Assembly: GCF_000423225.1 (NCBI RefSeq)
Contig: NZ_AUHO01000006.1
Location: 310,001-374,000 of the forward strand
DNA: 64,000 bases
Source of the DNA: Kaistia adipata DSM 17808
GTDB taxonomy: Bacteria; Pseudomonadota; Alphaproteobacteria; Rhizobiales; Kaistiaceae
Direction of reading: 5' to 3'
The translations under genes were made by a program, and so were the position numbers. Below the pieces are notes generated by a model that worked only from the letters and a program-made list of their open reading frames with translations, did no database searches and had not been told where the DNA came from. Below, one piece after another: positions 7,695 to 10,993 of the stretch (position 1 is the stretch's first letter; each line of letters begins with the position of its first letter).

Positions 7695-8357
7695 TCAGCT
7701 CACAGTCTCGGTCAGTCGTTGGCGGACGGTCTGCCAGATCGCATCGGCGACCGCGTCGGGGTCGTGATTGGCGTCGATTACCACGCAGCGCTCCGGCTCG
7801 CGCGCCGCGATGGCGAGGAACAGGTCGCGTCGTCGCTGGTGGCGCTCGACGGTTTCGCGCTCGAAGCGGTCGGCGTCGCCGGCGGCAGTGCCGCGCCGGC
7901 GATGGGCGCGTTCCAGGCCGATCTCGACGGGCAGGTCGAGGATCAGCGTAAGCTCGGGCCGGACCGGGCCGACGGCGATCTTTTCCAGGCTGTCGAGCAG
8001 CTCCGAGCCGACGCCATCCGAGCCCTGGTAGGCGCGGGTCGAGTCGATGAACCGGTCGCACAGCACCCAGTCGCCCCGGCCGAGCGCCGGACGGATCACG
8101 CGGTCGACGTGATCGGCGCGGGCCGCCGCGAACAGCATGGTCTCCGCCTCCGGGCCCAGCGTCTCGGCCGAGCCGGAGAGGATGAATTCGCGGATCGCCT
8201 CGGCGAGGTCGGTGCCGCCCGGTTCGCGCGTGACGACGACCGTGCGGCCCTCGGTGGCGAGCCGATCGGCCAGCCGGCGGATCTGGGTCGACTTGCCCGC
8301 CCCCTCCCCGCCTTCGAATGTGATGAAGTGTCCGGCCAATTCCGTCGTCAGTTCCAT
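7695..8357 (-). CDS. tmk: Thymidylate kinase
   Basis: A 220-residue P-loop kinase converting dTMP to dTDP. It shows FITFEGGEGAGKSTQ (Walker A), the DR(E/Y)-type loop TREPGGTDLAE, the base-binding segment LCDRFIDSTRAYQG and the LID-side arginines of ERAHRRRG. Length is normal for the family. Its start overlaps the last 10 bp of the upstream dac gene and its stop abuts holB, so it sits in a tightly coupled operon. Confidence 0.96.
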   Translation of the reverse strand: MELTTELAGHFITFEGGEGAGKSTQIRRLADRLATEGRTVVVTREPGGTDLAEAIREFILSGSAETLGPEAETMLFAAARADHVDRVIRPALGRGDWVLCDRFIDSTRAYQGSDGVGSELLDSLEKIAVGPVRPELTLILDLPVEIGLERAHRRRGTAAGDADRFERETVERHQRRRDLFLAIAAREPERCVVIDANHDPDAVADAIWQTVRQRLTETVS

Positions 8358-9526
8358 TGGGGCAGCCAGCCGATCAGCAATTGCTGCACGGCATCGAGCG
8401 CGCGCTGGTTCATCGTGCCCTGGCCAACATCGGCCATCGTGTAGACCGGCTTCTCGAGCACCTGCGTGTCGCCCACCCAGACGCGCACCGTTCCGACCTC
8501 GCGGCCGGCGGCGACGGGCGCCAGCAGCGGCCCGTCATAGGTCACGCGGGCACGGATTCGCTCGCGATTTCCTCGAAGCAGCAGGATATCCAGCGGTTCT
8601 TCGGTCACGAGGCCGACCGAGCCCGCCGCCCCCCCGTAGACGCGGGCCTGCGCGACGGCCTCTCCACGGTTGAAGAAACGGAGCCGCTCGAACGCGGTGT
8701 TCCCCCATTCGAACAGCTTGCGCGCCTCGTCGGCGCGGTCCTTGTCGGTCGTCAGGCCGCTGACGACGAGGATCATGCGGTGCCCGTCGCGCATGGCGGA
8801 GGCGGTCAGGCCGAATCCCGATTCCTTCGTGAAGCCTGTCGACAGGCCGTCGGCGCCGATGCCGGCGGAGAGCAGCGGATTGCGGTTGCGCTGGTAGATC
8901 TTGTTCCAGGTGAAATCCGGCTCGGCGTAGATCTTGTAGAGTTCGGGATAGGTCCGGATCAGGTGATCGGCGAGCGTGTGCAGGTCGGCGGCCGTCACCT
9001 TCTGCTCGGGATCCGGCAGCCCCGAGACATTGGTGAAATGCGAGCCCTTGAGGCCCAGCTCGCGCGCCTTGCGGTTCATGATGTCGACGAAACCGCCTTC
9101 CGAGCCGGCGATGCCTTCGGCCAGGATGATGCAGGCGTCGTTGCCGGCCTGGACGATGGCGCCGCGCAGGAGATCGGAGACGGGAATGTGCGATTTCAGC
9201 GCCGCGAACATCGTGGCGCTGCCCGATGGCGCGCCGCCGGTACGCCAGGCATGCTCGCTGACGGGGAAGCTGTCGGTGAGCTTGATCTTGCCGCTCTCGA
9301 TCGCCTCGAACACGACGGCCATGGTCATCATCTTGGCCATGGCGGCGGGCTGGAACGCGGCGTCCTCGGCCTTGCTGTAGAGGATCGTGCCGGAATCGAC
9401 GTCGACCAGGATGGCGCTGCTCGCCTTGCTGTCATAGGGCGCGGCCCGCGGCGCCGCCGGCGCCGCCAGCGTCAGGGCGACGGCCGGCACGATCAGCGAG
9501 CGCAGAGGAAGCCAGCGAGGGATCAT
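8348..9526 (-). CDS. D-alanyl-D-alanine carboxypeptidase-family protein with all three active-site motifs altered
   Basis: A 392-residue exported protein of the PBP5/DacF family (peptidase S11), with a signal peptide (residues about 1-29, ending PRAAP) and a C-terminal PBP5 domain. The fold is intact: LVDVDSGTILYSK, AWRTGGAPSGSATMF, DACIILAEGIAGSEGGF and RNRNPLLSAGIGADGL are all family-typical. However, the catalytic S-x-x-K reads AMAK (residues 62-65), the S-x-N reads AGN (127-129) and the K-T-G reads STG (229-231). I checked each codon on the DNA (GCC, GCC, TCG). Without the nucleophile Ser and both partner residues it should not be a working carboxypeptidase. The ATG at 9526 starts a good signal peptide; it follows rlpA by 96 bp and overlaps tmk by 10 bp. 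Confidence 0.85.
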   Translation of the reverse strand: MIPRWLPLRSLIVPAVALTLAAPAAPRAAPYDSKASSAILVDVDSGTILYSKAEDAAFQPAAMAKMMTMAVVFEAIESGKIKLTDSFPVSEHAWRTGGAPSGSATMFAALKSHIPVSDLLRGAIVQAGNDACIILAEGIAGSEGGFVDIMNRKARELGLKGSHFTNVSGLPDPEQKVTAADLHTLADHLIRTYPELYKIYAEPDFTWNKIYQRNRNPLLSAGIGADGLSTGFTKESGFGLTASAMRDGHRMILVVSGLTTDKDRADEARKLFEWGNTAFERLRFFNRGEAVAQARVYGGAAGSVGLVTEEPLDILLLRGNRERIRARVTYDGPLLAPVAAGREVGTVRVWVGDTQVLEKPVYTMADVGQGTMNQRALDAVQQLLIGWLPQWN

Positions 9527-9622
9527 GACATCATGCCGGGCGCCAGAACCAGTTCGGGGATGGCCGATCGCCACCCCGTTCTGGTTAACAGGCCGGACGC
9601 CCTGCGATCAATGCCGCCCCGC

Positions 9623-10993
9623 TCAGCGGGTGACGAGATAGGCGCCGGCAAGTCCGGCCGCCCGTACGGCAGCCACGGCGTCGCTGCCGGTGGCAACCTG
9701 GTCCGCGACGACGAGGCGCACCGACTGCATCGGCTTGCCGCCGACGGTGATCGGAGTTGCCGTGACGCGGCCGAGGCCGGCGAATTTCGCTGCGAGCGCA
9801 TCGGCATTGGCCGCGCTCGCGAACACGCCGAGCTGGACGATCGCCGCGTCGGCGCCGCGATCGGCGGCGGCACGGGCCACGGCCGCATCGAGCGCGCCCT
9901 GCAGCTCGCCGCGACCCGACGCCATCTCCGCGGCGGCGCGCTGCGCGGGCGAAGCCGACGCCTCGGCGGCATAGGAGGAACGGTTGGAGCGCGGCAGAGG
10001 CGCGTAATACTCGTCCGCCGGAGCGACCTCCGGGGGCATGCCCTGGTCGGAGTAACCGATCGGCTCGGCGTAGGTGATGGTGCCGAGCGAGCGCTCGCCG
10101 TAATTGCTGCCGGCCGGGACCGGGGCCGGACCGGCGTCGGCGACGACATGGCGCTGCGGCTGCGCGTCATAGGTGGCGAGCGCCGGGTCATAGGCGTTGC
10201 CGCCATAGTAAATTTCAGGACGGGCGCGCGGAATCGGCGCGAGCGATGCCATCATGACCGTCGGGCTCGCCGTCGGCGCGCGCAGCGCCGGGGCCTTGAG
10301 CGCCAGCATGGTGCTGCCCGAAACGCTGCTGCCGGGGCCCTGATAGGTCGCCATCAGCATCTTCTGGTCATGCCCTTCCATGCGGGCCGGGCCGACATAC
10401 TCGACCTTCACCTTCGACGTGCCGTGATGCTTCATGTCCAGCACCTCGGCCGTCTTGGACGACAGGTCGATGACGCGGTCATGCGCATAGGGACCGCGAT
10501 CATTGACGCGGACGACGACGGAGCGGCCGTTCCTGGTGTTGGTGACGCGGGCATAGCTCGGCAGCGGCATCGTCGGATGCGCGGCCGAAAGCCCGTCCAT
10601 GTCGTAGACTTCGCCATTGGCGGTGTAGCGGCCATGGAAGGCGGAGCCGTACCAGGAAGCGAGGCCAACGGCCGCGTAGCGCGGGTTCTCGCGCGGCGTG
10701 TAGACCCTGCCCTTCACCGTATAGGGCTTGCCGACCATGTAGCGGCCGCCGCCCTGCGGCACCGGCTGGCCGTATTTCACGACGCGCGGGCTGGCTTTGA
10801 CGCCATATTCCTTCTCGGAAAAGTATTCCTTGCTGCGCTTCGAAGGTTTGGAGGGGGCGCTGGCGCAGGAAGCAAGGATAGCGGCGGCGGCGACAACGGT
10901 CGCGGCCTTGAGCAAGATCCTGCCCTGCGGCGCTTCCGAACGCTTCGCGCCCGGAATCTGTTTCTTGGACATCCCCATCTCGCCTGACTTCAT
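9623..10993 (-). CDS. rlpA: RlpA-like septal ring lipoprotein (DPBB plus SPOR)
   Basis: A 456-residue putative lipoprotein. After a basic N-terminus and hydrophobic segment comes a lipobox, AILASC, with the lipidated Cys near residue 43. The double-psi beta-barrel follows at about 110-195, with VGLASWYGSAFHGRYTANG and the catalytic-region RVNDRGPYAHDRVIDLS. A long Pro/Ala-rich linker leads to a C-terminal SPOR domain (about 385-456, AAIVQLGVFASAANADALA), which binds denuded glycan strands at the septum. RlpA homologs cleave such glycans (lytic transglycosylase) or act structurally. It heads the operon followed by the carboxypeptidase-like gene, so the two peptidoglycan-facing proteins are probably co-expressed. 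Confidence 0.88.
   Translation of the reverse strand: MKSGEMGMSKKQIPGAKRSEAPQGRILLKAATVVAAAAILASCASAPSKPSKRSKEYFSEKEYGVKASPRVVKYGQPVPQGGGRYMVGKPYTVKGRVYTPRENPRYAAVGLASWYGSAFHGRYTANGEVYDMDGLSAAHPTMPLPSYARVTNTRNGRSVVVRVNDRGPYAHDRVIDLSSKTAEVLDMKHHGTSKVKVEYVGPARMEGHDQKMLMATYQGPGSSVSGSTMLALKAPALRAPTASPTVMMASLAPIPRARPEIYYGGNAYDPALATYDAQPQRHVVADAGPAPVPAGSNYGERSLGTITYAEPIGYSDQGMPPEVAPADEYYAPLPRSNRSSYAAEASASPAQRAAAEMASGRGELQGALDAAVARAAADRGADAAIVQLGVFASAANADALAAKFAGLGRVTATPITVGGKPMQSVRLVVADQVATGSDAVAAVRAAGLAGAYLVTR

Follow-up and report, generated by a model that had tools for sequence, protein, structure and literature searches.

A catalytically dead PBP5-type protein is probably retained for a non-catalytic role in Kaistia, and its orthologs have lost catalytic residues repeatedly within the Hyphomicrobiales

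The dac gene of Kaistia adipata DSM 17808 probably encodes a PBP5/DacA-type pseudo-carboxypeptidase that is catalytically dead and kept by selection for a non-catalytic job, rather than being a gene in decay. The gene lies at 8348-9526 on the minus strand of the window, by which we mean the whole 64,000-nucleotide stretch of DNA that was analysed. Its product, a homolog of the S11 D,D-carboxypeptidases having 392 residues, was characterized from the reading frame, Pfam matches, and a predicted model. Reading of the frame places A-MAK at residues 62-65, AGN at 127-129, and STG at 229-231. Ala62 (codon GCC, 9341-9343) occupies the site of the SxxK nucleophile serine, Ala127 (GCC, 9146-9148) that of the SxN serine, and Ser229 (TCG, 8840-8842) that of the KTG lysine, all three codons being on the minus strand, and the accompanying Lys65, Asn129, Thr230, and Gly231 are kept. 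The replacement of all three motifs claimed in the original prediction was therefore confirmed by the frame. No stop or frameshift was found within the dac frame, which reads through all 392 residues. On the opposite strand, an open frame of 876 residues (8357-10987, plus strand) spans both dac and the neighbouring rlpA gene and probably just mirrors coding DNA rich in G+C.

The protein matches PF00768 (Peptidase_S11, 234 bits) followed by PF07943 (PBP5_C, 62.5 bits), both above cut-off, and the solved structures nearest to it by sequence are carboxypeptidases of the PBP5/PBP6 type. A model predicted from an alignment of 25 sequences (the window protein plus 24 of 42 named loci) had a mean pLDDT of 83.5 and found its best structural match in P. 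aeruginosa PBP5 (4k91, chain 4k91_B; Z 39.5, rmsd 2.3 Å over 340 residues). The domain matches and this superposition bear out the expectation that the PBP5 fold had been kept. The amphipathic C-terminal helix (model residues 372-391; 8351-8413, minus strand) is PBP5-like by position, is seen in most of the dead and intact orthologs compared, and is presumably a membrane anchor as in PBP5. The Kaistia protein thus has the fold, domain order, signal peptide region, C-terminal helix, and rlpA gene order of PBP5, PBP6, and DacA (MEROPS S11), but the nucleophile serine, the SxN serine, and the KTG lysine are replaced and the family reaction is impossible by the known mechanism, as no acyl-enzyme can form where the serine nucleophile is missing. 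Such a protein would neither trim pentapeptides nor be acylated by beta-lactams.

The same Ala, Ala, and Ser were found at the three catalytic sites in all 14 Kaistia genomes obtained from a 60-relative search (13 whole genes and one split gene) and also in Prosthecomicrobium pneumaticum (G015). Among the 14 aligned Kaistia-clade rows, which are 13 Kaistia genomes plus P. pneumaticum, Ala62, Ala127, and Ser229 are each fixed (14/14). Three residues common to a genus and to P. pneumaticum cannot be a sequencing error, and an accident of a single genome is ruled out in the same way. Three independent losses had been proposed for this gene; three catalytic residues have indeed been lost, but the events did not take place in this genome, being common to the genus and one sister genus. 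Replacement of the nucleophile serine, the SxN serine, and the KTG lysine predates the Kaistia/Prosthecomicrobium split, and the residues have been replaced ever since. One fragmented Kaistia assembly has dac in two pieces, each in a different frame, on a contig of 4.2 kb (L034 of G007, and L089), which may be an error or a real break.

In Kaistia dac is under purifying selection and is not decaying. Over nine Kaistia pairs (pairwise NG86 estimates), dN/dS was 0.065-0.206 for dac, 0.074-0.238 for tmk, and 0.066-0.227 for rlpA, and two intact S11 paralogs of the same genomes gave 0.061-0.220 and 0.084-0.271. Eighteen dac positions are invariant in 65 genera having intact motifs (a conservation set without L099 and L089), seven of which are motif positions by definition; ten of the 11 non-motif positions are kept in 14/14 Kaistia-clade rows and the other in 12/14. 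At the 90% conservation level (68 positions), the sole fixed changes in the clade are at 62, 104, 127, and 229. Lys65, Asn129, Thr230, Gly231, and Arg264, the last of which we take to be the aligned counterpart of Arg248 of E. coli PBP5, are retained in 14/14 rows. Ratios well below 1 and the kept invariant residues agree with the earlier claim of catalytic loss without decay elsewhere. What was found matches two marks of a pseudoenzyme: an otherwise intact family member has lost its catalytic residues, and the nine-pair dN/dS values together with the dead state common to P. pneumaticum speak for long-term purifying selection.

Alignment of orthologs and comparison of dN/dS, which the original prediction had proposed, thus place Kaistia dac level with tmk and rlpA, and they also disclosed mild relaxation across degenerate genera. 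Median dN/dS was 0.180 in ten genera having a degenerate dac and 0.098 in fifteen intact genera (p 0.08), and the ratio of dac dN to tmk dN was 1.00 versus 0.79 (p 0.043), genus g6 of family f1, which has mixed states, being excluded from both comparisons. Constraint is thus slightly weaker in the degenerate genera, and lag may account for part of the gene's persistence.

Another active PBP5 had been put forward as something to look for in the genome, and two candidates were found. The genome has three S11 genes, and the two outside the window carry SLTK/SAN/KTG and SITK/SAN/KTG; only the window dac has the PBP5_C domain. Both paralogs are present in all 14 Kaistia genomes, and all seven scored motif residues were found in 30/30 fetched loci of the one and 30/30 of the other. 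Judged by these motifs, D,D-carboxypeptidase activity would be left to the two paralogs.

Catalytic residues have been lost at the dac locus in many Hyphomicrobiales. Among 179 genomes sampled evenly across the order, 161 have an ortholog (112 intact and 49 degenerate), and the other 18 gave none at 1e-60. The 49 degenerate orthologs fall in 12 of 41 families, and 14 of them lack the nucleophile. The full set of 183 whole-genome rows comprises 119 intact and 64 degenerate genes, the latter in 13 families and 27 of them without the nucleophile; L001 (the same gene as L004) and L034 (the split G007 gene, the pieces of which were read apart) were excluded before counting, and L257, which is without the first motif, was scored intact from the residues that it does have. 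Kaistia, P. pneumaticum, and families f48, f24, and f11 have lost the nucleophile itself. The patterns differ among families. All five genomes of f48 (genus g56) have A-MAK / AAN / [AVS]TG, a triple change like that of Kaistia; f11 has N-F[AT]K with Tyr or His replacing the SxN serine; f41 has NAN / [VG][SA]G; and Rhizobiaceae have [QGA]xN with the KTG lysine replaced by G, A, or V. A different kind of loss is seen in f34, where 7/7 rows (L033, L110-L112, L114, L155, and L159) keep both serines and KTG and have the SxxK lysine replaced by Thr and the SxN asparagine by Gly or Thr. Both states occur within genus g6 (L021 and L023-L026), a member of the window's family: dac is intact in two of its five genomes and degenerate, each time differently, in the other three, and loss there looks to be ongoing. 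Outside the order, all of the 88 homologs fetched (from 104 matching genomes) were intact, among them L359, the full frame of which has SSMTK, SGN, and KTG.

Brucella and Rhizobium orthologs had been described in the original prediction as having SMAK, SGN, and KTG. For Rhizobium this was contradicted by the sequences: the SxN serine and the KTG lysine are lost in 27/27 fetched loci titled Rhizobium, Rhizobiales, or Rhizobiaceae, a set retrieved with peptide patterns taken from the window protein and hence biased towards close relatives. The orthologs of R. tropici and its relatives belong to the same locus and family and are degenerate (S-xAK, QxN, and G[TL]G), but unlike the Kaistia protein they keep the serine nucleophile, carry other replacements, and lost their residues separately.

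Losses were counted on a careful tree of 81 rows (79 of 214 available, hand-picked for lineage coverage, plus two outgroup rows), which was built using a mixture model with the motif columns excluded. This tree requires at least 11 losses overall, with minima of five for the nucleophile, eight for the SxN serine, and nine for the KTG lysine. Rows of f48 group with those of f19 and f42, apart from Kaistia, and the f48 triple change therefore arose independently; the Rhizobium losses are likewise separate from those of Kaistia. A quick tree made using a simpler model gave only eight losses and joined many of the degenerate rows, which we read as attraction of fast rows.

The neighbourhood of dac is conserved, as had been claimed. 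Upstream lies rlpA (9623-10993, minus strand), encoding a DPBB_1 lytic transglycosylase with a SPOR domain, and downstream lies tmk (thymidylate kinase; 7695-8357, minus strand), which begins with an ATG inside dac and shares 10 bases with its end. A co-oriented rlpA precedes dac in 145/183 loci (54/64 degenerate and 91/119 intact), so far as the flanks fetched allow this to be seen. Since linkage is similar for intact and dead dac, the link to rlpA is old and predates the loss. The E, D, H, and D of the DPBB domain, presumably the catalytic residues of RlpA, are present in Kaistia and retained in 51/52 loci beside a degenerate dac. In P. pneumaticum, where dac is triply dead, rlpA lies about 200 kb away, and in f48 it is not adjacent to the triply dead dac in 5/5 genomes. 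ABC transporter genes (a binding protein and two permeases; L066, 1-3839) occupy in P. pneumaticum the place that rlpA has in Kaistia. RlpA is also present in 5/5 tested genomes without a dac ortholog. In the loci examined from dac-less genomes (L339-L346, from G019, G105, G021, G134, G072, G043, G086, and G030), rlpA and tmk adjoin in 8/8 and no dac-like frame was found between them in any of the eight; dac is deleted in several lineages. Neither rlpA nor dac thus requires the other. As 18/179 genomes have no dac, some lineages can do without what it does.

Most of the Hyphomicrobiales sampled lack the Rod system. MreB was found in 21/179 genomes, 20 of them over the curated cut-off; the other, G136 (357.7 bits, below the curated 365.75), was scored as MreB-bearing. 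PBP2/MrdA was over cut-off in 16/179 genomes, and in Kaistia neither MreB nor PBP2/MrdA was. The Rhizobiales are described as lacking the Rod complex in the available text of PMC8546619. The dac gene is intact in 21/21 MreB genomes, and the 158 MreB-less genomes comprise 91 intact, 49 degenerate, and 18 without dac (Fisher p 4.4e-5, with ancestry ignored), so that 91/140 MreB-less genomes having dac are intact. Losses of dac are confined to MreB-less genomes, but this is confounded by ancestry, the tree giving only two independent MreB/dac pairs, and is a lead rather than a result. Outside the order, MreB was found in 108/113 genomes, and the five MreB-less ones all have an intact dac (5/5).

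Several other explanations of the Kaistia gene can be weighed against selection for a non-catalytic role. One is that dac is slowly decaying because catalysis is unneeded in polar growers, the remnant being kept by lag or by translational help to the essential tmk. The dac/tmk overlap, the mildly relaxed constraint in degenerate genera, and the genomes that have lost dac from between rlpA and tmk would all fit, but the dN/dS of Kaistia dac equals those of tmk, rlpA, and the intact paralogs, and the gene was already dead in the common ancestor with P. pneumaticum and has kept its 11 non-motif invariants in 12-14 of 14 rows. Moreover, coupling to tmk would not conserve amino acids, and dac-less loci show tmk to be independent. 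We consider slow decay quite improbable. Residual or altered catalysis, by another nucleophile or base or by a pocket that catalyzes a different reaction, is very unlikely in Kaistia. Lys65, Asn129, Thr230, Gly231, and Arg264 are kept there, and many degenerate lineages beyond Kaistia keep the serine nucleophile and may have residual activity, but the nucleophile is missing from Kaistia, as it is from P. pneumaticum, f48, f24, and f11, and two Acinetobacter enzymes of this type are reported to be inactivated by the equivalent Ser-to-Ala change (available text of PMC13059705). Acquisition of an already dead gene from another lineage was hinted at by the quick tree, which put Kaistia among degenerate rows (support 58). 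This horizontal replacement is scarcely credible and was ruled out by the mixture-model tree without motif columns, in which the Kaistia and P. pneumaticum genes cluster with intact ones from their own family (support 97/93).

A dedicated partner of RlpA is the rival that keeps most weight, although it too is unlikely. Here the dac protein would dock to the neighbouring lytic transglycosylase or present naked glycan strands to it. The upstream rlpA of most degenerate loci and the conserved E/D/H/D would agree with such a partnership, as would the available text of PMC9712689, in which rlpA is a neighbour of E. coli dacA and of P. aeruginosa dacC, and RlpA of the latter species binds several PBPs. 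Against it, the same text gives PBP5 as a neighbour and not among the named RlpA partners, linkage is as common with intact dac and so older than the loss, and RlpA persists where dac has gone. A dedicated partner would be found always with and next to rlpA, which is not the case in P. pneumaticum or in any of the five f48 genomes. The scaffold for RlpA in the original prediction is therefore unsupported, whereas its broader claim of selection for a non-enzymatic role is favoured by the predicted loss without decay, the neighbourhood, the intact paralogs, and the dN/dS values.

We return to a selected, non-catalytic protein and to what it might do. The features that remain (the cleft frame, the PBP5_C domain, and the C-terminal helix) point to a membrane-associated binding protein, which would lie at the membrane on its periplasmic side and act by binding. 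Its most likely mode would be to hold or shield the stem peptides of peptidoglycan or to dock to enzymes of the wall. Binding of stem peptides is our preferred guess and docking to RlpA a weaker one; the pocket appears to be retained, although binding of any ligand is not thereby proven. In the Hyphomicrobiales, mostly without the MreB/PBP2 Rod system, catalysis at the dac locus would have become dispensable, and dac would afterwards have stayed active, turned into a pseudoenzyme, or been deleted. More tentatively, and with the odds against it, a recurrent class of pseudo-PBP5 proteins that followed loss of the Rod system might bind stem peptides without cutting them and regulate or mark polar wall growth in the order.

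Pseudoenzymes with peptidoglycan hydrolase folds are known, chiefly from the LytM family. The degenerate LytM regulators (DipM of Caulobacter, EnvC, and NlpD) likewise have a peptidoglycan-hydrolase fold without catalytic residues that was kept in evolution, and by analogy such proteins as DipM are the nearest functional precedent. The groove of the degenerate site of DipM is reported to dock autolysins (available text of PMC10336132). In contrast, the fold and family of Kaistia dac are unrelated to these proteins, and the Kaistia protein is not known to have a docking partner. No LytM (M23) domain was found in dac, for which Pfam gives only S11, PBP5_C, and a Beta-lactamase2 match. We found no report of a degenerate PBP5/DacA at the dac locus, or of a Kaistia carboxypeptidase study, among the titles and abstracts listed in our searches of open PMC papers. 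In S. meliloti four serine D,D-carboxypeptidase genes were counted, without remark on degeneracy in the available text (PMC7327166).

Within a single order, a penicillin-binding protein fold has thus been stripped of catalytic residues 11 times or more and yet retained, and 88/88 of the relatives fetched from outside the order are intact. The annotation 'D-alanyl-D-alanine carboxypeptidase' is unsafe at the dac locus in Rhizobiaceae and many other Hyphomicrobiales. A non-catalytic role of PBP5-type proteins has long been difficult to separate from catalysis, and the dead, intact, and deleted states, sometimes within one genus (e.g., g6), are natural replicates for testing such a role. Among S11 proteins, the pseudo-PBP5 class would, if real, be the non-catalytic equivalent of the degenerate LytM regulators.
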